A stretch of 64,000 nt of DNA from Clostridiales bacterium. Its GTDB lineage: Bacteria; Bacillota; Clostridia; Christensenellales; Aristaeellaceae. A program made the position numbers and the translations under genes. The DNA lies in contig CP069419.1 in the NCBI GenBank assembly GCA_017569285.1, forward strand, positions 3,038,001-3,102,000, in the 5' to 3' direction. Under the pieces are notes generated by a model that worked only from the letters and a program-made list of their open reading frames with translations, was not told the DNA's origin and ran no database searches. Below are positions 2,873 to 17,086 of the stretch, one piece after another. How positions within the stretch are numbered: the first letter of the stretch is position 1; each line of letters opens with the position of its first letter.

Positions 2873-4249
2873 ATGAAGAAGCTGATTTCCCTGGTATTGA
2901 CCTTGGTGATGATCCTGATGGTCGGCAGTGCGTTTGCGGGTACGATTACAGTCCAGAATGTTCTTGATGATGAGACCTACACCGCGTACAAAATCCTGAA
3001 CTACACGGAAAGCGTCACAGGAGAAGACAAAGCGGTCAGTTATTTCCTGTCTGCTGAGGAGTATACCGCCATCGGTTCTGTACTTGTAAGTGCCGGTTTT
3101 ACATTTACTCCCAGTTCTGATGGCACACAATATACCCTTAATAATGCTGATGCACTAAATGAAAGCGGCGTAGCTGAAGTGGCAGCATACCTGGCAGAGC
3201 ATGTTTCCGAGCTCGGCAATGCTCTGGGAAAAGCAACGGCAACAGGAGCGAATGGTGAAGCGGTATTTACCAACCTTCCTGCTGGATACTATTTTGTGAC
3301 TTCTTCCGCCGGTTCTCTGTGTGCACTTCACAGCGACCAAGATATTGCTAAAGTTGTTGAAAAGAATACGGTTCCAACAGTAGACAAGAAAGAGAAAACA
3401 ACTGGTGAAGACTATGCTGATGGCCCGGTTGATGCAAACGTTGGTGATACAGTCCATTATCAGATTGTCGTAACTGATGGAACTGGCACAAACGCTTCGA
3501 TTACCCTGAAAGATACAATGACGGATGGCTTGGATTACACTGCCGGTACGATCAAGATTAACGGTACAGAAGTGGCAGATGATGCAGATACCGAGAACTG
3601 GAAAGTCACTGTTTCAGGCAGAACGATTACTATCGTATTCTCTGCTGTTTATGTGGCTACAGTAGATGAGGAAGAAACAATTACAGTAACCTATGATGCG
3701 ATTATTAATGCGAATGCAGTTGTTGACAGTGCTACTGATAATGTGAATAAAGTCGAACTTGATTATTCAGAACAGCATTCAGAAGATCAGGTTTATGTAG
3801 AGACCTATGATTTCGTTGTTAAGAAAACAGATGGAACGAACTTCCTGGATGGCGCTGAATTCAAACTGTATGATGCTTTGACTGATGGTAATCAGATCCT
3901 AATTGCTGCGGACGGAGAAGGCAAGTATGTCAAAGATCCCACTGCCGATGAGGACGTGACGATTGACATTAACAGTGCCACAGGCTGCAATGTCCGCGGT
4001 CTTGCCCCTGGAGAGTATTACCTGGAAGAAGTTGTTGTTCCCGACGGTTACAACAAGCTTCCGTCCAGAACAGAAGTTAAAATCACAAAGGGACAGACGG
4101 AATCGGTAAAAATTACCGTTGAGAACAAGGCTGGTACTGAGCTTCCTTCCACAGGTGGCATCGGTACGTCGATCTTCTACGTCATCGGCGGTATCCTGCT
4201 GGTTGGCGCAGCGATCGTATTGGTGGCCCGCCGCAAGGCAAACGACTGA
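2873..4249 (+). CDS. LPSTG-anchored isopeptide-forming pilin/backbone protein
   Basis: A 458-residue surface protein with the layout of a sortase-assembled pilin subunit. An N-terminal signal peptide runs MKKLISLVLTLVMILM to about residue 22 (SAFA). Next come an N-terminal pilin domain, a fimbrial D2-type isopeptide domain (about residues 165-305, with DTVHYQIVVTDG), a SpaA/Cna-B-type domain (about 312-420, starting FVVKKTDG and containing GAEFKLYD), the sorting signal LPSTG (bases 4142-4156), a membrane anchor and a KAND tail after ARR. Pilin sortases cut between Thr and Gly. The gene is clearly richer in A+T and in A/T-ending codons than the housekeeping genes around it, which fits a variable surface locus. 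No sortase gene is in the window. A strong terminator follows directly. Confidence 0.9.
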   Translation: MKKLISLVLTLVMILMVGSAFAGTITVQNVLDDETYTAYKILNYTESVTGEDKAVSYFLSAEEYTAIGSVLVSAGFTFTPSSDGTQYTLNNADALNESGVAEVAAYLAEHVSELGNALGKATATGANGEAVFTNLPAGYYFVTSSAGSLCALHSDQDIAKVVEKNTVPTVDKKEKTTGEDYADGPVDANVGDTVHYQIVVTDGTGTNASITLKDTMTDGLDYTAGTIKINGTEVADDADTENWKVTVSGRTITIVFSAVYVATVDEEETITVTYDAIINANAVVDSATDNVNKVELDYSEQHSEDQVYVETYDFVVKKTDGTNFLDGAEFKLYDALTDGNQILIAADGEGKYVKDPTADEDVTIDINSATGCNVRGLAPGEYYLEEVVVPDGYNKLPSRTEVKITKGQTESVKITVENKAGTELPSTGGIGTSIFYVIGGILLVGAAIVLVARRKAND

Positions 4250-4440: not shown

Positions 4441-4908
4441 ATGGCTAACGACTTACAGAGTTTAGCACACACGAGATGGAACTGCAAATATCACATAGTG
4501 TTTGCGCCGAAGTATCGAAGGATAGTGTTTTACGGGGAAAAGAAAACGGAGATCGGAAAGATCATCCGACAGTTATGTGAATGGAAAGGTGTAGAAATCC
4601 ATGAAGCAGAGGTATGCCCGGATCATATCCACATGTTGGTGAGCATACCACCCAAGGTAGCGGTATCAAGTTTCATGGGTTACCTGAAAGGAAAAAGCAG
4701 TGTGCTAATCTACGAAAAGTTTGGGGAACTAAAGTACAAGTACAGGAACCGTGAATTTTGGTGCCGGGGGTATTACGTAGATACGGTAGGAAAGAATACT
4801 AAGGCAATCGCAGAGTATATCCGGCATCAGTTGGAAGAGGACAAGATGGGAGAACAGTTAACAATGCTGGGAAAGGCCAACGATAACCCGTTTACGGGTG
4901 GCCAGTAA
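4441..4908 (+). CDS. tnpA: IS200-type Y1 HUH transposase
   Basis: A 155-residue single-strand DNA transposase that cuts and joins the element ends through a 5'-phosphotyrosine. The HUH metal-binding motif is His62-Ile-His64 in CPDHIHMLVS, and the catalytic Tyr126 is in AIAEYIRHQ. Length and order match IS200-family TnpA, and no frameshift or stop is seen, so it is probably functional. The start ATG follows AAAAGGAGG at a 7-base distance. Translation from outside transcripts may be blocked by the leader hairpin at 4379-4432. It is a stand-alone transposase without the accessory TnpB. Confidence 0.95.
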   Translation: MANDLQSLAHTRWNCKYHIVFAPKYRRIVFYGEKKTEIGKIIRQLCEWKGVEIHEAEVCPDHIHMLVSIPPKVAVSSFMGYLKGKSSVLIYEKFGELKYKYRNREFWCRGYYVDTVGKNTKAIAEYIRHQLEEDKMGEQLTMLGKANDNPFTGGQ

Positions 4909-5024
4909 CAGTCTACGCGGTTGGCAGACCGTAATTGCGCCTGCGAGGGCGCGGGCTAGTATTCTAGGCCTATGGCCGCATAAGAAAAGCCACCGGCTAT
5001 GCCGGTGGATCTTTACTTCTCCAG

Positions 5025-5142
5025 CACCGGTGGTCATCGACAGCCGCATCCTCAATGGTCGCAACTCCACACTGTGGAGCTTGCTCCCTTTCGGATGAGA
5101 AACCAGCCGATGAGATTTCCGCCACCGGCGGTCATCGGCCGG
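5025..5142 (+). repeat. imperfect direct repeat around a small hairpin, 3' of the IS200 element
   Basis: CACCGGTGGTCATCG (5025-5039) recurs as CACCGGCGGTCATCG (5123-5137), 98 bp apart. Between them lies a hairpin with stem CTCCACA / TGTGGAG (about 5065-5079). Both copies resemble the codons for a Thr-Gly-Gly sorting-signal core. The stretch probably derives from rearranged pilin 3' sequence or a small inserted repeat. Confidence 0.4.
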
Positions 5143-5229
5143 TTTCCCACGATCTTCTACATCGTCGGCGGCATCCTGCTGGTTGGTGCTGCAATCGTCC
5201 TGGTTGCCCGCCGCAAGGCCAACAACTGA
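5121..5229 (+). pseudogene. 3' remnant of a second LPXTG pilin gene
   Basis: Codons 5149-5229 read TIFYIVGGILLVGAAI followed by VLVARRKANN and a stop. This is almost identical to the membrane anchor and tail of the intact pilin ending at 4249. Just upstream an ATGG-type sorting core (SATGG, about 5119-5133) is visible but lies in another frame, so the anchor and the sorting motif are separated by a frameshift. No start codon, signal peptide or pilin domain remains. The paralogue's terminator (5259-5287) is kept. The body was therefore lost, most simply by deletion associated with the adjacent IS200-type element or by recombination between pilin copies. Confidence 0.8.
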
Positions 5230-5475: not shown

Positions 5476-6069
5476 ATGGTTTTTATTGAAATATGTATTC
5501 TTGTCGGGGAGATTGTTGCCCTCATCCTGACGAGTATTGAGGCAGGATGGCGGCAGTTTTATTACTATACCCAGCTCAGCAATTATTTCCTGACAGTGGT
5601 GACAGCTATCCACCTGTTTACCGTGCTTCGGAAAAAGCCGGTGAGTGAACGGCTGAACCGATACCTGTACACCGCAACCTGTCTGACGACTGTGACCTTT
5701 TCTGTAGTAGCCTTTGTACTGATGCCGATGGAAGGACGCTTTTACAGCTACATGCTGGGAACCAACGCGCTGTTCCATCATACGATATGCCCGATCATGG
5801 GAGTCGCCCTGGTGACGATGCTCCGGCCGGTTCGGAAAAAGGATGCCGCACTGGCACTGGTCCCGACCCTGATCTATACACTGATCATGTTTATTGTGAA
5901 CCTGTGTATTCCCGACTTCGGGCCGTATCCATTCTTCAAGATCTACAACCAGCCGATCTATATGAGCTTCGTCTGGCTGTTCTGCCTGCTGACGCTCGTG
6001 TACGGTGCAGCACTGCTGATGTGGATGCTCAGCGGCAAGAGATACCGGCCAATGTATGAAGGGCAATAA
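5476..6069 (+). CDS. polytopic membrane protein (Pr6Pr-like)
   Basis: A 197-residue protein made almost entirely of hydrophobic segments, about six membrane helices. The early motif YYYTQLSNYF followed by a long helix, and the later ALFHHTICP, resemble the Pr6Pr/FAR-17a-like family of small integral membrane proteins, whose function is unknown. It is transcribed from its own promoter and was originally followed by a bidirectional terminator, now split by the IS3 element 35 bp past the stop. The family link is from general pattern only. No enzymatic residues can be pointed out. Confidence 0.7.
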   Translation: MVFIEICILVGEIVALILTSIEAGWRQFYYYTQLSNYFLTVVTAIHLFTVLRKKPVSERLNRYLYTATCLTTVTFSVVAFVLMPMEGRFYSYMLGTNALFHHTICPIMGVALVTMLRPVRKKDAALALVPTLIYTLIMFIVNLCIPDFGPYPFFKIYNQPIYMSFVWLFCLLTLVYGAALLMWMLSGKRYRPMYEGQ

Positions 6070-6086
6070 TAAAACTGAGTAACATC

Positions 6087-6103
6087 AAAAAGGAGCAGGG
6101 AAG
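6087..6103. terminator. left half of a bidirectional terminator split by an IS3 element
   Basis: AAAAAGGAGCAGGG plus AAG, the left copy of the target duplication. Joined to the right half (7583-7599) it gives A-tract, stem GGAGCAGGG / CCCTGCTCC, loop AAGTGAT and T-tract, serving the converging genes at 5476 and 8248. Confidence 0.85.
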
Positions 6104-6110
6104 TGATATG

Positions 6111-6149
6111 TACCCTCTTTACTGGACACCCAGTAAGGAGGGTATTTTT
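6111..6149 (+). promoter_or_regulatory. left-end hairpin of the IS3 element covering the orfA ribosome-binding site
   Basis: TACCCTC-TTTACTGG (6111-6125) pairs with CCAGTAA-GGAGGGTA (6130-6144) through a 4-base loop, about 15 pairs with one wobble, followed by TTTTT. The 3' arm contains GGAGGG, the orfA Shine-Dalgarno, 7 bases before the ATG at 6150. Transcripts entering from outside would fold and be terminated and/or untranslated. Confidence 0.75.
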
Positions 6150-6722
6150 ATGCGTTACAGTTATGAGTACAAGATGAAATGTATTGAGATGTACAGAGAA
6201 GGAAGGTGGCCTGAGACCCCTACAGGTATTAAAGAAGCGCGATACTTTCATAATATGATCCTGCGATGGTTTCATGTAGTAGAAGCAAATGGGCCAGATA
6301 TTCTCAAACCCCGGGAAACTAATAAGGATTGGACCCCAGAAGAGAGATATGAGCTGGTTGCAAAAGTCCTAGGTGGTTCATCAATCCAGTTTGTAGCTAA
6401 TGAGGCGGGTATAAATAGCGGATTACTTACTTGCTGGGTTCGCAAATATAAGAACGAGGGGTATAATGGCCTTATAAACAAGAGAAAAGGTCGACCACCA
6501 AAGGAGCCCCATATGAAGAAAATCAATTACAACAACCCTAGGAAACTTAATGAGTCCGAGTATGAAGAACTCGTAAGGCTAAGGGCTGAAAACGAGTATA
6601 TCAAAGCGGAAATCGAAGTCATAAAAAAAGAGATCGCCTTGAGAGAAGAAAAGGAAGCTGCGCGTCTCAAGGCGAAAAAGCAGCGATCATCAAAGAACTC
6701 AGAGAAGAAGGATACCAACTGA
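6150..6722 (+). CDS. IS3-family OrfA (DNA-binding component of the transposase)
   Basis: A 190-residue OrfA beginning MRYSYEYKMKCIEMYREG. It has two helix-turn-helix-type modules (about residues 1-60 and 65-125, the second with GINSGLLTCWVRKYKNEG) and a C-terminal leucine-zipper-like coiled coil (about 140-180). An upstream in-frame ATG at 6108 lies inside the terminal inverted repeat without a ribosome-binding site; 6150 has GGAGGG at the right distance and was chosen. OrfA alone recognises the element ends. Fusion to OrfB by -1 frameshifting makes the transposase. Possible slippage sites are A-AAA-AAA at 6623-6629 and GAAAAAG at 6674-6680. Confidence 0.9.
   Translation: MRYSYEYKMKCIEMYREGRWPETPTGIKEARYFHNMILRWFHVVEANGPDILKPRETNKDWTPEERYELVAKVLGGSSIQFVANEAGINSGLLTCWVRKYKNEGYNGLINKRKGRPPKEPHMKKINYNNPRKLNESEYEELVRLRAENEYIKAEIEVIKKEIALREEKEAARLKAKKQRSSKNSEKKDTN
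6623..6680 (+). other. candidate programmed -1 frameshift region between orfA and orfB
   Basis: In the orfA frame the run ATA AAA AAA G gives a canonical A-AAA-AAA heptamer at 6623-6629, and a second run GAAAAAG lies at 6674-6680. The -1 frame is open from before 6620 through the whole orfB. Slippage at the second site joins OrfA to an AAIIKELREEGYQLKYLLK stretch that looks like the usual OrfB start, so it seems the better fusion point. Confidence 0.55.
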
Positions 6723-6739
6723 AGTATCTTCTTAAAGCG

Positions 6740-7534
6740 ATGTGCCTTTCCAGATCAACGTACTATTACGAAGTTTCAAAAGAAGATGTGGTAGCCAAAA
6801 GGAGCGAAGCAGTCGCAAGTGTGATCAGGGAAATCTTTGAACATAATAAAGGTCGATACGGTGTCCGGAGAGTACACCACGAACTGATCAACAGAGGATA
6901 TAAGGTAAACCACAAAAAGGTCCAGCGATTAATGCACTGCATGGACCTTAAAGGCAAACGCCCGAAAGAAAAATACCATTCTTATCAGGGAGAAGTTGGA
7001 AAGGTGGCAGATAACCTCATTAACCGAGACTTCAGTACAACAAAGCCTTTGCAAAAATGGACAACAGATGTTTCTCAATTCAATTTATCTTGGGGAAAAT
7101 GCTATCTTTCTCCAATTCTGGATATGCACACAAATGAGGTCATCTCATACGATCTCTCGTTAAGTCCAAACATGGAACAGATCCGACGGATGCTGGATAA
7201 GGGGCTGAGCAGGTTTTCCTCACTTAATGGTCTGATCTTTCATTCTGACCAGGGTTGGCAGTACCAACATGCTTATTTCAGAAATACGATTGAGAAACGT
7301 GGCATTATTCAGTCCATGTCCCGAAAAGGAAACTGTTATGACAACAGTATTATGGAGACATTCTTCGGACGACTAAAGAACGAGATGTTTTATGGATACG
7401 AGAAAGACTACAAATCATATGAGGAATTCTCCAAAGCTATGGCCAAGTATATTGACTACTACAACAATGAGCGCATCCAGGCAAAAACAAAATGGATGCC
7501 ACCCGTAAAATACAGGTTGGCATCCATGGGTTGA
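6740..7534 (+). CDS. IS3-family OrfB (DDE integrase/transposase)
   Basis: A 264-residue catalytic component with an N-terminal HTH_21-type region (CLSRSTYYYE, IREIFEHNKGRYGVRRVHHEL) and an rve integrase core. The catalytic triad is Asp110 (WTTDVSQF), Asp170 (HSDQGWQY) and Glu206 (METFFGRLK), with exactly 35 residues between the second Asp and the Glu. The C-terminal YYNNERIQAKTKWMPPVKY is typical of IS3. The ATG at 6740 is only the first Met; the active protein is expected from -1 frameshifting out of orfA. No inactivating change is seen. Confidence 0.93.
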   Translation: MCLSRSTYYYEVSKEDVVAKRSEAVASVIREIFEHNKGRYGVRRVHHELINRGYKVNHKKVQRLMHCMDLKGKRPKEKYHSYQGEVGKVADNLINRDFSTTKPLQKWTTDVSQFNLSWGKCYLSPILDMHTNEVISYDLSLSPNMEQIRRMLDKGLSRFSSLNGLIFHSDQGWQYQHAYFRNTIEKRGIIQSMSRKGNCYDNSIMETFFGRLKNEMFYGYEKDYKSYEEFSKAMAKYIDYYNNERIQAKTKWMPPVKYRLASMG

Positions 7535-7582
7535 GCCTCGAGCATAAATCAATGTGTCCAGGAAACTGGGTACATATCAAAG

Positions 7583-7600
7583 TGATCCCTGCTCCTTTTG
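7583..7600. terminator. right half of the bidirectional terminator split by the IS3 element
   Basis: TGAT then CCCTGCTCC and TTTT, complementary to the left half at 6087-6100. It lies 16 bp past the stop of the minus-strand gene that ends at 7616. Confidence 0.85.
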
Positions 7601-7615
7601 TAATGTGGGTATCAT

Positions 7616-8248
7616 TTATTTCTGGATAATCGTATAGGCTGAGATATCAAAGAGGGATTCATCCACTTCGGAGTCGATGGCACTCACTGTGTAGAACAGT
7701 TCTCCCAGGGAAGAAATTGAATCGTTGCGTACATAGGAGAGACGACCGGATTCATCGAAGTAGAAAGCAACTTCCGTGCCGCCGTCGGCCGGGTATACTT
7801 CGACCGTATAGGAAACACTGTCCACTTCGCGCGTTTCGATTTTATAGCTTGAGTTATGGGCCCATTTGTCTATTAGCTTGCCCAGCTCATCCGAGCGAAT
7901 ATAGCTGTGATATTTCAGGAGGGAGGGCGAGAGGGTTAGGACGGCCTGGGCCTCCATCTGATCCGGATTCAGCATGTAGGATGTATCTCCGATAAAACAG
8001 CTTGCACTGACAGCAGACAGCCCGAAGGCATAGGAAGTCTTAACTGTGTAGCCGGATGTGCCTTTTGCATGGACATCATAATTGATTTCGGCACCCATGG
8101 ATGCAGAATGCATCGTGTAGTTCAGATGGATGCCGACATCAGCATCCAGACTGTTATAAACCGCATCCAGCATGGAACCTTCCGCACTGGCAAAGCACAG
8201 GACTGAAACAAGTGACACGACCATGACCAGGAAAAGGATTTTCTTCAT
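7616..8248 (-). CDS. small secreted protein of unknown function
   Basis: A 210-residue protein starting MKKILFLVMVVSLVSVL, with a classic signal peptide ending near FASA-EGS. The start at 8248 has AAGGAGG 9 bases upstream; an in-frame ATG at 8269 would put charged residues before the signal and lies upstream of that site. The mature part (about 187 residues) is rich in Ser, Tyr and beta-prone stretches such as GTSGYTVKTSYAF and SYTVEVYPADGG, suggesting an all-beta fold like LolA/LppX-type lipid carriers, but no motif settles this. There is no lipobox and no membrane anchor. It is divergent from the giant adhesin gene and originally shared a terminator with the gene at 5476. Confidence 0.8.
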   Translation of the reverse strand: MKKILFLVMVVSLVSVLCFASAEGSMLDAVYNSLDADVGIHLNYTMHSASMGAEINYDVHAKGTSGYTVKTSYAFGLSAVSASCFIGDTSYMLNPDQMEAQAVLTLSPSLLKYHSYIRSDELGKLIDKWAHNSSYKIETREVDSVSYTVEVYPADGGTEVAFYFDESGRLSYVRNDSISSLGELFYTVSAIDSEVDESLFDISAYTIIQK

Positions 8249-8427: not shown

Positions 8428-8527
8428 ATCAATTGTATAAGTATGTCCCGAAAGAAACATATTTAATTTTCTATCCGTGACTCGGATTGCCTGTAAATAC
8501 CAGGTGAACACGAAAGAAGGTTGTTTC

Positions 8528-11500
8528 ATGAATCGGCAATATGCAGGGAAGGACATCAGGCGCCGTCTGCTGGCGGTACTGCTGAGCTTCCTAATGCTGT
8601 TGCAAACCGTGGGTGCGTTTGCAGAGGATATTGCTGTACCTGAAACGGAACCTGCCGAAATTGCCGAAACGACAGCAGAACCCGCACAGGAGCTCCCGGA
8701 TGTGAGTGTCGCAGAGGAAGAAACAGATATCCCATCCGAAACGGAGCCCGGGGAAGAACCGGCAGCACCGTTATCCATTGAAATCCCGGAAGAAACAGAC
8801 GGGGAAATTCCGGCTGCAGAAGAACCGGAGATTCCGGTGGAAACCGGGGAAATGCAGGAGGACAACGAGGATGTGCCTGTCAGCGATCCGGCAATCCTGA
8901 CAGATGAGGGAAATCCCATTGAGCCGGCAGATGCTCTGGAAGATATTCCTGAATCATTGGAAACCGTTCCGGTGATTGACACATCAGAATCCATTACCAT
9001 GCTCCAGGCGGGCTTTGTTCCCATTCCTGTATACTTCGAGGGAACATTAGTTCATGAGGGCGCGGACTATACCGTTACCGCTGTGATCGGGAAGGATGCC
9101 ATGCTCCCGGCAGATGTTTCCATGCGCGTGGCGGAGGTCCTGCCCGGAACGGAACTGTATGAGTTTTACCGGGAAATGATGGCGGAAACCCTGGAGGAAG
9201 ACGAGGAGATGGGCGAGTTTGCCCGGCTCTTTGATATCGCGTTTATTGCGGTGATTGACGGGGAAGAAACCGAGTTCGAACCGGCAGCGGACATTGATGT
9301 GCAGATCACCTTCCTGGAAGCGATTGCTGTTACGGAAGAGATCGATGTACAGGCTGTCCATTTCGATGAGAATACCCCGGAGGTTATGGACGTTTCCACG
9401 GATTCCCTGGCCGCAGCGGCGGATGATGATGAAGCGATTGATACCCTGTCTTTTACAAGCGACAGTTTCTCCATCTACGGTTTTTTCCAGAAGGTGAAGA
9501 AGGTCATCAAGGTGATCACAGCGAGCGGTGAGACCTTTGCGATTGACGTGTCCTTCACATCCGATTCCGGCATTCCGGATGATGCGGAGCTGACGGCTGC
9601 GGAGATTACGCCGGATGATCCAAGATATTATATATATAAAACACAGGCTGCAAGGGCGCTGAATGCAGAAGATGTCGGGACTGCTCATTTCTTTGACATT
9701 GGAATTGCCTATGAAGGTGAGAAGATTGAGCCCAATGGAACGGTTACGGTCAATATCTCACTAGATGAAATGCCGGATGATCCGGATACAGTGGCAGTTG
9801 TACACTTCGGAGATGAAGGTACGGAAGTAATCGAGAGCGTTGAGGTATCCGAAAATGATATCCAGTTCCAAGCGGAATCGTTCTCGGTTTATGGCGTAAT
9901 TACAGATCCCGGAGAACAGGGATTTGACCTGGTGGGACAAGCAGCGATATTCAGCAACACTTATGGCGGCAGAACATATTATGTAACAGCGTTGCGTACT
10001 TATGACCAAAATATTCGACGTCTGCAGGAAACAACTACCCAATCCGACGCTGCTTTATGGTTCTTTGAAACAACCGGAACACGGGGAGAGTACTATATCT
10101 TCACTGTCGAGAATGGTACAAAAAGATACCTGAATTTCAGGAACGGGAATGGACAAAGCGCTGAGGTAGTCATCGGGGATACGCCACAGGCTTTCTCAGT
10201 AGAACAGCAGAGAGACAACACCTATAAAATCAAAGGAACACTGGGTGAAACAATCTATCACCTTAACCGCTGGGGGAACGGCAATCCCGGTGGATTCGCA
10301 GCCTATCGACAGGATAACGGCGACAATATCGGAGAACATATTGCCTTTACATTCCGGAATACGACTCCGCCAGGGAACAACAAGTATGTCGTAATTGTCA
10401 AACAGGGGAATGAGTATTATACCGTTCAAGCGGATGGAACGCTGATTCCATGTATTTATCATGCAGATACAAACATGGTTGAAATGGATTCCCCGGTGAT
10501 GTGGACCTACAGTGAAGCAAATGGGAATTCACATAATCTGAAGATGACCGAGGAGGCTCTTCGGTTTGACGGTAATCAGCTGCCGATTGAGTTCTCATAC
10601 AGATATATTAATCCGAATGCAGATTCAGGTATTACAGTTGAGGAAGTCCAGGGAAGCGGAAACAATAAAACTGCGGTCAGCCAGGCGGCAGCCAGTGCGC
10701 TTCAGTATGATAATACTAACCATACAATCCATGGGAACGGAAATAATAATTATATAGGCGTTAAAGAAGAACTGGGGAAGCTGAAAATTTCCGGCAATAA
10801 TCCTGCTTCATCAGCTGCGGAGGTATTCCTTGCTATTCCTATGCTGCCGACGAGCCCCTATGGGGTCACCAATGCGGTAAATCATATTGATATTTCAGTT
10901 ACGGGCCACGTGAACCTGAACATGGCATTCGCTTATGGCACGTATTACAAAGCAGACGGAACCGCCATTGTTGTAGATAAAGACAATCCATATACCTGCA
11001 CAATTGACCGTGAAAAGATTGCGATCAAGCAGGAAGATATGGTTTATTCCGAAATAACCGCATATAAGATGAATGAGGACGGATCCACCACTCCCATGGA
11101 CAACATGTTCTATGTGACTGGTTATTCAAACAACGGTAAGAATGACGGGCCGAGTGACTCAGACCAGGTTCGGATTGAAGGCTTCTTTAAAGTATCTTAC
11201 ACGGATGTTCCTGGACAAAATGGCAATTATGATAGCCAACAGGCACGTCTTCGCACACCAGTTTACTATACTGTGACTGTTCCGAAGGAAGTTACCGTTC
11301 CGCTAAGACACAACGGTGAACTGGTTTATGCGGAGAATCCGAATGAAAACCTAAATGCTAAACCCATTGAAGCTACGACAACAGTGCTGCTGTCTGCAAG
11401 CTTCAATTACTGGGATTTCCAGAATAACAAGTGCCCTGCCTGCCTGAACGGGCTTGGAGGTACCTGGTACTGGGGAGATATTCCGGATGGTATTGATAAT

Positions 11501-14500
11501 GATAAGTATCACTCCGGCAGCGGAATGGATTTTGTACTGGGTGATACCGGCAATAATGGCAGCGTCGCAGTTGAAATCATCAAATATGTGGTGGACAAGC
11601 AAGGCAATCCTATTGAGGTTGCAAGTGATCCCAAATACTCGTTTGATATCTACTACAGCAAAAACAAAAGCGCCAATTATGTCGCGGATTATTATGGCGT
11701 TCAGGATCCCTCTGTTCTGAATGGACTGGACCTTGAATCCTATACCAAGCTACATACCAAGAATATCATGGTTGGTGCCAACGGTTCCGGCACGCTGTAT
11801 GATTATGACGTTGGGAAAATCGTATCAAATAACACGTATGCCTTGATATATATCAAAGAAGACCAGGAAAGCATTCCCCAGACCATTATGGATAAAAATG
11901 GAGACATCTGGGAATATACCGGCAACACGAAAATCGTGACTGAGTATGTCAAACGGCCGGATGCCCACCCGGATCATGAGATAAGCGGATATACCGCGAT
12001 TCCGGATGTGCTTGGAACGTTTACGATGACCAACCGGCAGAATAAACTGAGCGCGTTCCTTGAATTCTATGTTTATAACGAATATGAGCGCAAGACAGAT
12101 ATTACTGTTAAGAAAACGTGGACTGACGGAAACGATAATCACGCCAATGACAGTGTGACAGTGCGCCTGATTCGTTATGCGGATACCAGTGCACCACCCA
12201 CACCGCCAGATCCTGTACTGACAGACGGAAAACTCGACCTGACACATGAAGTTGTTGGCTATAACGGAAACCTGCCAGCTGGATTTAAGTATTACGCGAC
12301 AAAGGATGGCGTGACGCGACAGCTTGTATTGGGAGAAAACACGCTGCCTGCCGGAACATACACATTATCGGTGGACAGCAGCAATGTCACACACCCGGAT
12401 CATTTCCAACATAGAAGAACATCTATCAGCCCGACCAGAGTAACGATTACGGCCGGATCAACCAGTTATGCGACAGTAAATACTACATACCGGGAGAAAA
12501 ACAACAATAACGAGACCAAGGTTACCATACGTGTTCATACATCAAACGCCTCGAACCCGTATTACGGCGTATGGATTGGAAACGTGCATAATCCGGATCA
12601 TTCTGTGCAGTATAACTGGACGCTTGGGACAATCACTGCAAATACAGAACAAGTATCTGAAGTGACAGTTCCACGGCAGGATACAAATGGAAACCCAATT
12701 CAGTACTCGTTTGATATTTCACCATACAATTACACAAGAAAGAGAGTTGTTGTACATAACGGATCTTTAAGCAACAACGATAATACGATATCGTTCCGGA
12801 ATGTGAACGGTGATGTGACTGTAGACATTTACCTTGATGCGAATTCCGGAAAGAGGATATTCAATTCCGGTATGCTGATCGCTTCCGGCGGTGTTGCTGT
12901 ACTGGGCGGCAACAGGAGCAATTCAGGCCTGCCAGAAGGGTATGCGGTCGATTCCGATTTCCAGACACTCACCATGGTACTGAACAGTGGAAACAGTTGG
13001 GAGAATGTATTCAGGCATCTGGATATTTTTGATGACTATGGCCGTGAATACTATTACGGGATTGAAGAAATCTCTATACCTGGATATATCACAACTATCA
13101 ATCCAAGCGGACCGATATCTGCCAGGACAGAGAATATAGCATTTACGGTTACCAATGATCCTGTTTTGCCAACACTTGGCGACATTTCCCTGAAGAAAAC
13201 GGTTGCCGGCGAGGGATGTGATCCAAACCGGGAGTTTGTATTCACGATTACCATTGTGGATGAAAACGGAGATGCAGTGGCTTCCTTTACGGGCGAGCAC
13301 GGGGATGTGACGTTCACAAATGGAACCGCGACAGTGACACTGAAGGGAAGTGACACTGAGCCGAAGTGGATCCGCAACCTGCCGAGCGGAACAAGATTTA
13401 CTATTCAGGAGACGCCGGTTGAAGGCTATCAGCAGGGCGTAGTGACGATTACACCGGAAGGCCGTGCATCAGTGGACGGTGATGGTGTAATCTCCGGAAC
13501 CATAATCGGTGGAGAACAGGACGGGCTGAACAGCGCAGTCACCATTCAGGTTCAGAATATTCATGTTCCGACGGTGAACATCAGCGTAACCAAGAACTGG
13601 GCAGAAGGAACGACGGATTACCAGAAGGCAAAGGGAATCCGGTTCGAACTGTATCGAACTGCGGGTGAAGGTGGAGAGAAGACAGCGGTTCCGGCGGAAG
13701 AAGCCGGAGAGAATCCGGCCGTACTTGTTGGGAACACTGACTGGACAAACAGCTATACATGGGAGAAATTGCCCCGGTATGTGGATTCCATGGCGGATCC
13801 GCTGGTGGAGTATATCTACAGCGTTGAAGAAACGGCGGCATACTTTGGAGAGTTGGAAGAAGGACAGGTGCCCGATGACGCAGCATGGTCGTCTGCTGCA
13901 CCGGATGATATTTATACAATTGAGTACAGCGATATCACTGCCGGCGTGATTACTGTAACCAATACGCCGAAGACCATTAATATTCCGGTGGAGAAAAAGT
14001 GGACCGGCATTGAAGCCGACACACTTGACTGGACAATCACAGTAAAGCTGCAGTCCGATCATGAGGTTACGGTGGATCCGGATACAATGACCATCTCCAA
14101 AGCAACCGCTGAATCAGAGCGAACATTCCGGAACCTGCCGAAGTACTACAATGGCCAGGAAATCGTGTATACCGTTGAAGAAACAGGATACCTGGTTAAG
14201 CGGGGGGATGAAGTTCTTTACTCCAAAGACGGTACAACAACCGTTGGTGAAAAAGAAGTCACGACTTATTATTCTTATCTGATGGATGAAAGCAGGGAGA
14301 ACCAGAAAGCCCTCATAACCAACAGTATTGCCACAGCTACATTTACAGTTTACAAGGAATGGAAGGATATTGTTAATAAGAACGATATGCCGGCCGTTCA
14401 CTTTACACTGTACTGCTACAGAACATCGGAAGGCAATAACAGCGCAAGGGTTTATGTGGATGAAAACAACATACGATATGAGAACCTGGAACTGAGCCCA

Positions 14501-17086
14501 GCAACCCAGTGGAAATGGGAGAAAGAACTGCCGGATTATTATCCGGGTGATGAAGAAACTCCCGGGAACAAGTTGTGCTACTATATTATTGAAACCAAGG
14601 AGAATGGTAAGGTTGCTTTTGACAAAACCACAATTCCAGAAGAATTAAGGAACAGCCGTTTCATTGAAGAGGACAGCTATGTTTCCAGCCAGGGAAGACA
14701 CACAGATCCAAATTCAGAACAGGTCCAGGACCCATACAATGCGTACGTGGAGGGTGGAACAGGGTCCATCACCGTTACAAACAGAGCACCGGGCGGATAC
14801 ATGCAAATGGATATCAAGAAAAAATTCCTTATGCATCAGGACGGATCCCTGTATACGGTGACAGGTTTTGATGTCCTTAAGCAAAACCGTGTAATCGAGG
14901 TACAGATATACCGCAGGGCGGTTGAAGACATAGCAATAACGATTCAACAATTCCACCCAAACGTCCCAATTGTTCAAAAAGACGGATGGAGACCATATGG
15001 AGATCGAATCCGGGTTGGATATGACAGCGCAGGGAATCCTGTGAAAGATCCAGGTAATAATACATTTACGGTGGATTATGCCGGAGACTGGCACTGGACG
15101 ATCAATCAGGGAGAGCATAAGGGCGGACTTCCCAAATATGGTTTTATCTATAACAACAATACAAACCAGTATGAATCAGTCCGATATCAATATGTGCTGG
15201 TAGAAACCGGTATGTACAAAGATTTGTCCGGCACACAACTCGATGACGGCTTTGACTGGTATGCGATTCTTCCGGCGGTTTGGGAAGCTAACGGGCAGAT
15301 CATTATGTTTGATCAAGAGATTGCACAGGACCAGGACCGCCTGATGAATGCCCAGGGAACGGATCTTACTATTACCAAGGCCTGGAAAGGCAAGCCACAA
15401 CCGGGAACAAAAGTGTATATCAAGGTATACCGGCTTGCAGACATGAATTATAATCCGGGAAGTGCTGAAGACTATACAGCAAAGATTAATAAACCTATTG
15501 CAAACTGGTCCGGCGGTGCTGGGCTCCCCATCCCGAATGACGGCAATGTGGGTGACCAATACCTGGACACGACGACAGCAGGCGGGCCGTACATTGTGCT
15601 GAGCGAGGAAACAAACTGGACGGTTACAATTAACAGGACACTTGCGGCCGGGAAAAACGGGGCATACCGCTATTGGATTCAGGAAGTGGGTTACAGCTAT
15701 CAAAACGGAGAGTTTATCCAGAATGTTTCCCAGTTTAATCCTGAATACAGTGTGATATCCGGATGGAGCCAGGGAGTGTTTAACAATAATCCGACAGGTA
15801 TCAAAGCAATCGTGTTGGAACGGAAGGGCCAGAATAATCTGGGCGTAACCAATACTGTTACAGAGACAGCAGAAGATTTCTCCAAGACATGGCAGACTCA
15901 CCTGGGAGAAGCGGTTGACTGGCCGACAGACAAGAGCCTGACCGTTGTGCTGAGCCGGTACAGCGGAGAAGGCGATGCACGACAGAAGGATACCTCGTTT
16001 GAATATACGATCACGGTAACACCCGACGGGGAGAATTTCAGTTGCAGCGTTACGCCTCAGACGGACGCAATCACGGTGGAAAAGGTCAGCATGACGGAAG
16101 GAAAGAAGTATACCTTCCGGATCAGCGGACTGCCGGCAAGGGACGGAGAAACCGAGTGGGACTACGTTGTTGAAGAAACACAGGAGCCTGATGGTTACAC
16201 CTTCATGGCTGGAGAAGGAGAAAACGAGTTTATCAACAAGGCAGAATTCACGCAACGGCATGCGACCAAAGTCTGGGATGATGAAGGCAATAGGTATGAT
16301 ACACGTCCGGGAAGCATCACATTCAGGCTGATTGCCAAAGTGAACAATACCGCACTGAACGATGCAGAAATGGCCAGTGAAGGGATTACGACAGATGAGC
16401 AGCCGGCGGAACAGACACTGACCCGTCCGGAAGACGAAACCGCAGACTGGGGAACTGTTAACTGGACAAACCTGCCCAAGATCACAAAAGCGGGGCAGAC
16501 CATTGAGTATTCGATTGAGGAACTGCCAGTTCCTGGTTACACATCAGAGGAAGCCACATTGAATGAGGATAACCTGACCTGGACAGTTACCAACACACTT
16601 AACAAAACGGATATCAGAATCATCAAGCGGAAGCACAAAGAAGAAGGCGATGAATCTCCTGATGAGTTCCTGACCGGAGCCGAATTCCGCCTTGACCGGA
16701 AGAACGGCGGAAGTGCATTCGTCCCCGTTGGGGATGCTGCCGCGGTAAATAATGTCGGTGAACTGTCATTTACAGGACTGCCGGACGGCGAATATCGGAT
16801 TGTGGAAACGGAGGCACCAGCCGGATATATGCCGCTGGCATCGCCGATCACGTTCACAATTGCAAACGGGAAGGTCAACGAAGAGTCAATTGTCGCATCC
16901 AGCCTGGTAACCTATACAGCAGCGACGGAAAGCCTACCTGCTACATTCACTGTGGACAACAGGCCCGGTGTGGCACTGCCTTCCACAGGCGGCGAAGGCA
17001 CCGCACCGTACATCCTGACCGGAATTGCCCTGATGGCGTTTGCGGGAATACTCCTGATGGACCGGAAAAGAAAAGCACACAAATGA
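8528..17086 (+). CDS. giant Cna-B-repeat LPSTG-anchored surface adhesin
   Basis: About 2852 residues. The start MNRQYAGKDIRRRLLAVLLS gives an extended signal peptide ending VGAFA; an upstream ATG at 8477 adds 17 residues before it. Order: an acidic Pro/Glu/Thr-rich stalk (to about residue 155); two related beta modules with repeated VSFTSDSG/DAELTAAEITPDDP-type elements (about 160-460); a large folded N-terminal part (about 470-1180); then an array of about eight Cna-B-like modules. These are marked by VKKTW (about 12.1 kb), TKNW, EKKW, YKEW, IKKKF, TKAW, SKTW and TKVW, each with a downstream YxxEE or YxIE partner. Next come a SpaA-type module (GAEFRLDRK, about 16.65 kb), LPSTG (16976-16990), a membrane helix and RKRKAHK. 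The Lys and Glu positions suit intramolecular isopeptide bonds. It is expected to be anchored by sortase and to act in attachment; the ligand is unknown. Confidence 0.92.
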   Translation: MNRQYAGKDIRRRLLAVLLSFLMLLQTVGAFAEDIAVPETEPAEIAETTAEPAQELPDVSVAEEETDIPSETEPGEEPAAPLSIEIPEETDGEIPAAEEPEIPVETGEMQEDNEDVPVSDPAILTDEGNPIEPADALEDIPESLETVPVIDTSESITMLQAGFVPIPVYFEGTLVHEGADYTVTAVIGKDAMLPADVSMRVAEVLPGTELYEFYREMMAETLEEDEEMGEFARLFDIAFIAVIDGEETEFEPAADIDVQITFLEAIAVTEEIDVQAVHFDENTPEVMDVSTDSLAAAADDDEAIDTLSFTSDSFSIYGFFQKVKKVIKVITASGETFAIDVSFTSDSGIPDDAELTAAEITPDDPRYYIYKTQAARALNAEDVGTAHFFDIGIAYEGEKIEPNGTVTVNISLDEMPDDPDTVAVVHFGDEGTEVIESVEVSENDIQFQAESFSVYGVITDPGEQGFDLVGQAAIFSNTYGGRTYYVTALRTYDQNIRRLQETTTQSDAALWFFETTGTRGEYYIFTVENGTKRYLNFRNGNGQSAEVVIGDTPQAFSVEQQRDNTYKIKGTLGETIYHLNRWGNGNPGGFAAYRQDNGDNIGEHIAFTFRNTTPPGNNKYVVIVKQGNEYYTVQADGTLIPCIYHADTNMVEMDSPVMWTYSEANGNSHNLKMTEEALRFDGNQLPIEFSYRYINPNADSGITVEEVQGSGNNKTAVSQAAASALQYDNTNHTIHGNGNNNYIGVKEELGKLKISGNNPASSAAEVFLAIPMLPTSPYGVTNAVNHIDISVTGHVNLNMAFAYGTYYKADGTAIVVDKDNPYTCTIDREKIAIKQEDMVYSEITAYKMNEDGSTTPMDNMFYVTGYSNNGKNDGPSDSDQVRIEGFFKVSYTDVPGQNGNYDSQQARLRTPVYYTVTVPKEVTVPLRHNGELVYAENPNENLNAKPIEATTTVLLSASFNYWDFQNNKCPACLNGLGGTWYWGDIPDGIDNDKYHSGSGMDFVLGDTGNNGSVAVEIIKYVVDKQGNPIEVASDPKYSFDIYYSKNKSANYVADYYGVQDPSVLNGLDLESYTKLHTKNIMVGANGSGTLYDYDVGKIVSNNTYALIYIKEDQESIPQTIMDKNGDIWEYTGNTKIVTEYVKRPDAHPDHEISGYTAIPDVLGTFTMTNRQNKLSAFLEFYVYNEYERKTDITVKKTWTDGNDNHANDSVTVRLIRYADTSAPPTPPDPVLTDGKLDLTHEVVGYNGNLPAGFKYYATKDGVTRQLVLGENTLPAGTYTLSVDSSNVTHPDHFQHRRTSISPTRVTITAGSTSYATVNTTYREKNNNNETKVTIRVHTSNASNPYYGVWIGNVHNPDHSVQYNWTLGTITANTEQVSEVTVPRQDTNGNPIQYSFDISPYNYTRKRVVVHNGSLSNNDNTISFRNVNGDVTVDIYLDANSGKRIFNSGMLIASGGVAVLGGNRSNSGLPEGYAVDSDFQTLTMVLNSGNSWENVFRHLDIFDDYGREYYYGIEEISIPGYITTINPSGPISARTENIAFTVTNDPVLPTLGDISLKKTVAGEGCDPNREFVFTITIVDENGDAVASFTGEHGDVTFTNGTATVTLKGSDTEPKWIRNLPSGTRFTIQETPVEGYQQGVVTITPEGRASVDGDGVISGTIIGGEQDGLNSAVTIQVQNIHVPTVNISVTKNWAEGTTDYQKAKGIRFELYRTAGEGGEKTAVPAEEAGENPAVLVGNTDWTNSYTWEKLPRYVDSMADPLVEYIYSVEETAAYFGELEEGQVPDDAAWSSAAPDDIYTIEYSDITAGVITVTNTPKTINIPVEKKWTGIEADTLDWTITVKLQSDHEVTVDPDTMTISKATAESERTFRNLPKYYNGQEIVYTVEETGYLVKRGDEVLYSKDGTTTVGEKEVTTYYSYLMDESRENQKALITNSIATATFTVYKEWKDIVNKNDMPAVHFTLYCYRTSEGNNSARVYVDENNIRYENLELSPATQWKWEKELPDYYPGDEETPGNKLCYYIIETKENGKVAFDKTTIPEELRNSRFIEEDSYVSSQGRHTDPNSEQVQDPYNAYVEGGTGSITVTNRAPGGYMQMDIKKKFLMHQDGSLYTVTGFDVLKQNRVIEVQIYRRAVEDIAITIQQFHPNVPIVQKDGWRPYGDRIRVGYDSAGNPVKDPGNNTFTVDYAGDWHWTINQGEHKGGLPKYGFIYNNNTNQYESVRYQYVLVETGMYKDLSGTQLDDGFDWYAILPAVWEANGQIIMFDQEIAQDQDRLMNAQGTDLTITKAWKGKPQPGTKVYIKVYRLADMNYNPGSAEDYTAKINKPIANWSGGAGLPIPNDGNVGDQYLDTTTAGGPYIVLSEETNWTVTINRTLAAGKNGAYRYWIQEVGYSYQNGEFIQNVSQFNPEYSVISGWSQGVFNNNPTGIKAIVLERKGQNNLGVTNTVTETAEDFSKTWQTHLGEAVDWPTDKSLTVVLSRYSGEGDARQKDTSFEYTITVTPDGENFSCSVTPQTDAITVEKVSMTEGKKYTFRISGLPARDGETEWDYVVEETQEPDGYTFMAGEGENEFINKAEFTQRHATKVWDDEGNRYDTRPGSITFRLIAKVNNTALNDAEMASEGITTDEQPAEQTLTRPEDETADWGTVNWTNLPKITKAGQTIEYSIEELPVPGYTSEEATLNEDNLTWTVTNTLNKTDIRIIKRKHKEEGDESPDEFLTGAEFRLDRKNGGSAFVPVGDAAAVNNVGELSFTGLPDGEYRIVETEAPAGYMPLASPITFTIANGKVNEESIVASSLVTYTAATESLPATFTVDNRPGVALPSTGGEGTAPYILTGIALMAFAGILLMDRKRKAHK

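Follow-up and report, generated by a model that had tools for sequence, protein, structure and literature searches.

Targeting of loops or palindromes by IS elements has, to our knowledge, been described mainly for REP sequences. The closest known elements, IS1397 and ISKpn1 of E. coli and Klebsiella, which we take to belong to the IS150 subgroup and to insert in loops, are likewise IS3-family elements found in palindromic repeats, while ISPpu9, ISPpu10 and ISPa11 are not known to be IS3 elements. Group IIC introns, which are retroelements that insert beside a hairpin, associate with intrinsic terminators. According to the accessible part of one paper (PMC1525189), IS1397 and ISKpn1, both of the IS3 family, and IS621 insert into REP sequences, the target choice of the first two is ascribed to the transposase, and REP association was noted for 7/7 copies of ISPpu9, 7/7 of ISPpu10, 6/6 of ISPa11 and 1 of the 2 IS150 copies in CFT073. 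Another IS3 subgroup, enriched in Firmicutes, has also been described, and the accessible part of that report (PMC6211511) makes no mention of terminator targeting. A search of open-access papers returned no earlier account of IS150-group elements that target terminator loops or carry inward terminators in pairs.

The element described here differs from IS1397 and ISKpn1 (REP/PU targets) in that the targets of the element and its relatives are mostly diverse intrinsic terminators and in that inward terminators are predicted at both ends of most of them. Terminators as opposed to REP sequences also distinguish it from ISPpu9, ISPpu10 and ISPa11, and both a DDE transposase and a target duplication, absent from group IIC introns, are found in IS150-group elements. 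From comparisons of sequence we consider it quite probable that a lineage of the IS150 group targets DNA hairpin loops, chiefly those of bidirectional intrinsic terminators, and that most of its members carry two inward terminator-like hairpins that would insulate the neighbouring genes.

The window, a stretch of 64,000 nucleotides from a Clostridiales bacterium (genome G000), had been read from sequence alone as containing an IS3-family element inserted within the loop of a bidirectional terminator that separates two converging genes, with the target AAG duplicated, and all of these features were confirmed. Thus, ORF B matched NF033516, the NCBI IS3 model, at 287.3 bits (curated cut-off 160) as well as Pfam rve, and the element is bounded by perfect 12-bp inverted repeats (TG...CA). 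From 6087 to 7599 the window reads AAAAA GGAGCAGGG AAG, followed by the element (TGATATGTACCC...GGGTACATATCA) and then by AAG TGAT CCCTGCTCC TTTT, and the flanks, when joined with a single AAG, folded into a hairpin of -26.9 kcal/mol. The neighbouring frames converge on this site, 5476-6069 on the plus strand facing a frame on the minus strand that ends at 7616. The protein of the former gave a weak match, 30.6 bits against a cut-off of 80, to the membrane protein family NF046009, while searches with that of the latter (7616..8248) against Pfam and NCBIfam gave no match at E 0.001. Coordinates of the features are collected in Table 1.

Table 1. Features of the element and of the split terminator, in positions of the window.
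Feature	Position	Strand	Basis or remark
Left neighbour frame, 197 aa	5476..6069	+	stops 34 bp before element
A tract and 5' arm of split terminator, AAAAA GGAGCAGGG	6087..6100	+	sequence, folding
Target duplication AAG, copy 1, within loop	6101..6103	+	sequence
IS3-family, IS150-group insertion sequence, 1,476 bp	6104..7579	+	copies, profile match, ends, tree
Left inverted repeat TGATATGTACCC	6104..6115	+	sequence
Left-end inward terminator-like hairpin, 15 pairs (6111-6144), with T tract (6145-6149)	6111..6149	+	folding, terminator scan, covariation
ORF A, transposase DNA-binding part	6150..6722	+	ORF list, profile search
ORF B, integrase (DDE) part, in the -1 frame with respect to ORF A	6740..7534	+	NF033516, Pfam rve
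Right-end inward terminator-like hairpin (7492-7527) with T-rich tail (7484-7491)	7484..7527	-	folding, terminator scan, covariation
Right inverted repeat GGGTACATATCA	7568..7579	+	sequence
Target duplication AAG, copy 2	7580..7582	+	sequence
Remainder of split terminator: loop TGAT, 3' arm CCCTGCTCC, T tract	7583..7599	+	sequence, folding
Right neighbour frame, convergent with left	7616..8248 (ATG), or start 8269 (TTG)	-	ORF list

The frame of ORF A is open from 6108, its likely start being the ATG at 6150, and that of ORF B is open for 314 codons and so overlaps ORF A, from which a -1 frameshift pair is predicted. In one sister copy (L002; G000:C1:1168447-1169923), which is 1,477 bp long, the two transposase frames read as a single open frame of 487 codons (483 aa from the first start), which makes this copy a natural variant with respect to the usual frameshifted ORF A/ORF B pair. 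In an ORF B tree of 89 rows, built by a quick method with no bootstrap and having several long branches, one 56-row group (SH-aLRT 98) took in IS150, the E. coli element and the relatives that target loops, whereas G144, G147, G151, G119 and G131 fell outside this group.

Two other features of the window were noted in passing. An IS200/IS605-type Y1 transposase (4441-4908) follows a gene with an LPXTG-like tail (2873-4249), and a frame beyond it (4999-5229) repeats the nearly identical C-terminal tail GGILLVGAAIVLVARRKAN of that gene, which looks as if the 3' end of the gene had been duplicated around the insertion. A 2,869-aa frame (8477-17086) ends in an LPSTGG-type tail and, judged from its translation, likely encodes a sortase-anchored surface protein.

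The window genome contains six copies of the element that are 99-100% alike. Five of these occupy hairpin loops and are bordered by the duplications AAG, ATC, CGGC, AAT and TCC, and all five sites are intergenic and between convergent frames: besides the window site, a copper-ATPase-like frame faces a sensor-kinase-like frame at L002, a MarR-like frame faces a CNNM-like frame at L003 (names from reading translations), and L004 and L005 lie between two further convergent pairs. The five hairpins differ from one another and look like ordinary terminators. At the sixth copy (L006) the duplication is ACT and a hairpin is absent; this copy abuts another IS3 element, of which matches to both ORF A and ORF B were found and in which it is apparently nested (L006 and L119, G000:C1:86629-89254). 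A stem score of at least 8, which together with an insertion point in loop position constituted the strict test, was noted for 5 of the 6 copies but for only 0.7% of flank positions and 1.3% of positions within 200 bp (P about 2e-9 under the latter background). The preference for hairpin loops that had been suggested from the window copy, with other insertion sites named as the place to look for it, is therefore far wider than one case, five of the six copies in this genome being in terminator loops and other genomes agreeing, as follows.

Among other genomes, 28 of 48 callable loci passed the strict test against a background of about 1%. These 48 remained from 84 loci (80 from a scan of genome contigs plus L010-L013) after loss of 26 without an end pair, 9 at a contig edge and L010, a duplicate of L111; their ends were called from motif and duplication only. 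Some of the 20 loci that missed the test resemble imperfect terminators by eye and others do not. Strict sites were also found for 6/6 copies in G023, for the single copy in G001 and for 1 of 3 plasmid copies, the background at flank positions ranging from 0 to 1.5% across the window genome, G023, G001 and the wide set. For the M. hyorhinis element, presumably IS1221, 11 of 22 distinct sites were in hairpin loops (background 3.2-4.4%), these 22 being what was left of 27 places, the flanks of which had been inspected before the count, after removal of 4 duplicates and 1 place without called ends. This element differs from the others in its genetic code (code 4) and AT-rich stems, and accessible passages on IS1221 gave no account of its target sites. 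In E. coli, 9 of 11 loci passed, although these loci, ten of them hand-picked from 60 listed matches (365 records matched) and the other being L260, represent four places only, namely cvrA-dadX, the end of an IS66, yejO and a transporter gene, of which the last two fail; two copies, L266 and L271, are situated within coding genes. At L260, L263-L265 and L270 the cvrA-dadX palindrome is the common target, with insertions that point either way and are slightly shifted from one another, in the manner of a hot spot. In L. salivarius, L225 lies in a phage gene at a stem of just 6 bp of AT.

Results from a held-out set were weaker. Of its 111 loci, 52 were uncallable and 4 were duplicates, and among the remaining 55, with element length limited to 1,200-1,560 bp, 18 (33%) passed the strict test (background 1.6-1.7%), which is below the level of at least 40% fixed after the loci had been listed and before the sites were read. 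This level was reached by genomes of the class (11/24, 46%) and missed by viral contigs (7/31, 23%). At a score of at least 6, a threshold picked afterwards, 37 of the 55 passed against a background of 7-10%. A count of pairs enclosing the insertion point in minimum free energy structures was dropped as a measure, since its background of 41-54%, depending on the group, gave no discrimination.

Three other IS3 lineages subjected to the strict test gave 0/32 (G144 0/10, G147 0/3 and G151 0/19), the copies fetched being 10 of 14 listed matches for G144, 3 of 3 for G147 and 20 of 24 for G151, one of which was uncallable. These multi-copy lineages from other genomes took the role of controls in place of other IS3 elements of the genus, for which a convincing end pair was found at none of 17 loci, one of them (L127) being identical with the clade locus L012. 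Two further lineages outside the 56-row group, G119 (1/3 strict) and G131 (1/2 strict, the third copy being uncallable), were excluded from the 0/32. Within G119 (L197-L199) one copy was observed in a palindrome of 27 pairs and two (L197 and L198) at hairpins that by eye are terminator-like, a hint at more than one origin, or an earlier origin, of terminator targeting.

The nature of the targets was examined in 54 strict sites pooled from the wide set (28), M. hyorhinis (11), G023 (6), G000 (5), and G001, the plasmid, G119 and G131 (1 each). At 52 of these, four or more consecutive A or T residues lay within the outer stem or next to it. With genes on both sides, 52 sites were divided into 26 convergent, 24 tandem and 2 divergent, the pattern expected of terminators, although the gene calls behind these counts were crude, the window site itself having been assigned a spurious antisense frame. 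Element orientation in the tandem cases was without bias (12 versus 12). The duplication lay near the dyad, with a mean offset of 0.4 and a standard deviation of 1.8 bases, and its position was not fixed. Near-random insertion, with selection retaining copies in harmless intergenic places and so enriching terminators, would agree with the intergenic position of the five hairpin sites in the window genome and with the mostly convergent or tandem context elsewhere. We consider this explanation very improbable, because positions within 200 bp reach a score of at least 8 in only 0-2.3% of cases (4.4% in M. hyorhinis) while the insertions are within a few bases of the loop, and because the same test was negative throughout the three control lineages.

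How the target is recognized is less clear-cut. The transposase might recognize particular palindromic sequences, whether those of a REP family or ones that resemble its own end repeats, with terminators being targeted by resemblance only. Copies in G023 and G001 do sit in one repeated palindrome family, GTGGACACYGGGGAC...GTCCCC (L008, L015, L017, L019, L021 and L023), as in the IS1397-like insertion into repeated extragenic palindromes; GTGGACACYGGGGAC has 20 matches on either strand in G023, 15 in G001 and 14 in G036, and the palindrome is also present without an insert in all three. GTGTCC/GGACAC, similar to a string in the inner part of the ends of the element, is moreover common to the target palindromes of E. 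coli and G023, and GGAG occurs in 4 of the 5 stems of the window genome. The shared GTGTCC/GGACAC strings may thus leave room for recognition of sequence in some members. On the other hand, stems of the wide and held-out sets were without a common string, as judged by eye, and the window genome, in which exact matches to GTGGACACYGGGGAC were absent, as they were from G002, uses unrelated terminators. Because stems differ between hosts, recognition of shape is favoured, the target most likely being chosen as a hairpin or cruciform and not as one sequence, and recognition of sequence appears doubtful as a general explanation, although it retains some weight.

Sites that lack the element were sought in relatives, as the sequence-only reading had advised, and were found for two sister copies and not for the window copy. 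Thus, both flanks of the window copy together were absent from the 44 genus genomes searched, which gave short partial matches only. In G015, where the sensor-kinase gene beside L002 is 98% identical, the joined L002 site gave an alignment of 1,800 bp with 95.7% identity, in which the element is absent and the terminator intact. The joined L003 site aligns in G004 at 77.5%, with both arms adjacent and the insert absent, and indicates a 4-bp duplication for L003; the empty-site hairpin in G004 is imperfect (strict score 4.8), and of 16 relatives examined at this place G004 alone keeps the same hairpin sequence. Five of the 30 records listed contained the whole of the joined query for L260 of E. 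coli (cvrA-dadX) at 100% identity (303/303 bp), and at least 80% of this query was covered in 4,191 records. The empty site of L225 of L. salivarius was found in two relatives; it lies inside a phage gene and offers no more than a weak AT stem. Chance or an assembly artefact was rejected as the origin of the element on account of its six copies, clean duplications and the empty sites of sister copies.

It had also been proposed that splitting of the terminator may allow antisense read-through into both neighbours, a proposal that finds no support in the anatomy of the element, since terminator-like hairpins face inward at both of its ends. The 81-nt stretch around the right-end hairpin has a folding energy of -31.8 kcal/mol (z -4.0). 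Inward terminators were predicted at the left and right ends, respectively, of 42/48 and 43/48 loci in the wide set, as compared with outward terminators at 1/48 and 4/48 and with 4-7% of internal windows. Corresponding values were 6/6 and 6/6 for the window genome, where 14-18% of internal windows also pass the terminator test, 6/6 and 6/6 for G023, 3/3 and 3/3 for the plasmid copies and 21/22 and 22/22 for M. hyorhinis, while in the held-out set they were 11/31 and 17/31 for viral contigs and 18/24 and 21/24 for the class. Outside the 56-row group, both ends were positive in G119 (3/3, 3/3) and G131 (2/2, 2/2) and negative in G144 (0/10, 0/10), whereas the control lineages G147 (0/3, 3/3) and G151 (0/19, 19/19) had the right-end terminator, which for this reason is not specific when taken alone. 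Neither end terminator was found in the E. coli relative L260, or in IS3 and IS2, and IS150, a member of the 56-row group, has the one at the right end only, its MG1655 copy being outside a hairpin. The lack of both end hairpins in the E. coli relative and the pass rate of internal windows in the window genome temper our confidence in the explanation as a whole.

Covariation in the two stems was assessed with hand-picked rows, comprising 20 of 32 right-end rows in a single register and 28 left ends. For the right stem (19 distinct rows) 96.1% of cells were paired and four pairs were changed on both sides, and for the left stem (26 distinct rows) 79.0% of cells were paired and 44 were changed on both sides. 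In 500 shuffles the paired share, the number of such changes and the covariation score were never reached for either stem, although two of five covariation measures were not above shuffles for the left stem. The hairpins might serve other roles, such as RNA folding for frameshifting or translation or extra binding of transposase, with termination being incidental. Such roles would agree with the position of the left hairpin, which partly coincides with the inverted repeat and is just upstream of the likely ORF A start, with that of the right one, which, read leftwards, lies within the last codons of ORF B, and with the E. coli relative, which does without either; the wide set, with T-rich tails inward at both ends and their rarity outward or in internal windows, speaks against them, and we regard this alternative as unlikely.

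With termination as the preferred role of the hairpins, transcripts that enter from either neighbour should stop, so that invading transcription is probably still halted at the element ends, contrary to simple read-through. Outward terminators at the right end, which were seen in 18/22 copies of M. hyorhinis, were found in 0/6 copies of the window genome and, as noted, were rare in the wide set, and the transposase transcript may read out through the right end.

The events at such a site may be pictured as follows. The transposase would pick a hairpin loop, mainly that of a bidirectional intrinsic terminator and, in some hosts, that of a REP-like palindrome, and the element ends are joined inside the loop with a stagger of 3 or 4 bp, as the duplications and empty sites show. 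Transcripts that formerly ended at the split terminator would then end just inside the element, from whichever side they came. If the inward hairpins terminate transcription as predicted, the net effect would be replacement of the split terminator, by which both neighbours would be kept insulated and the transposase gene shielded from outside transcription. The IS150 group was seen in Bacillota, in Bacteroidota MAGs, in Mycoplasmatota and in E. coli, and the chances seem about even that most of the group consists of terminator-exchange elements, which would read loops by shape, would typically carry two inward terminators outside E. coli, maintained partly by way of transposase codons, and would swap one terminator for two.

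What appears to be new is a set of loop-targeting IS elements that would be aimed at terminators and would mostly carry inward terminators of their own. If this is true of a large IS group, its members could multiply with little harm to host genes, their copies would serve as marks at the ends of genes and would reshape them, and recognition by shape or by sequence becomes a testable question. In genome annotation, a terminator that such an element has split should not be taken for lost; insertion may replace a stop signal and not merely break it.
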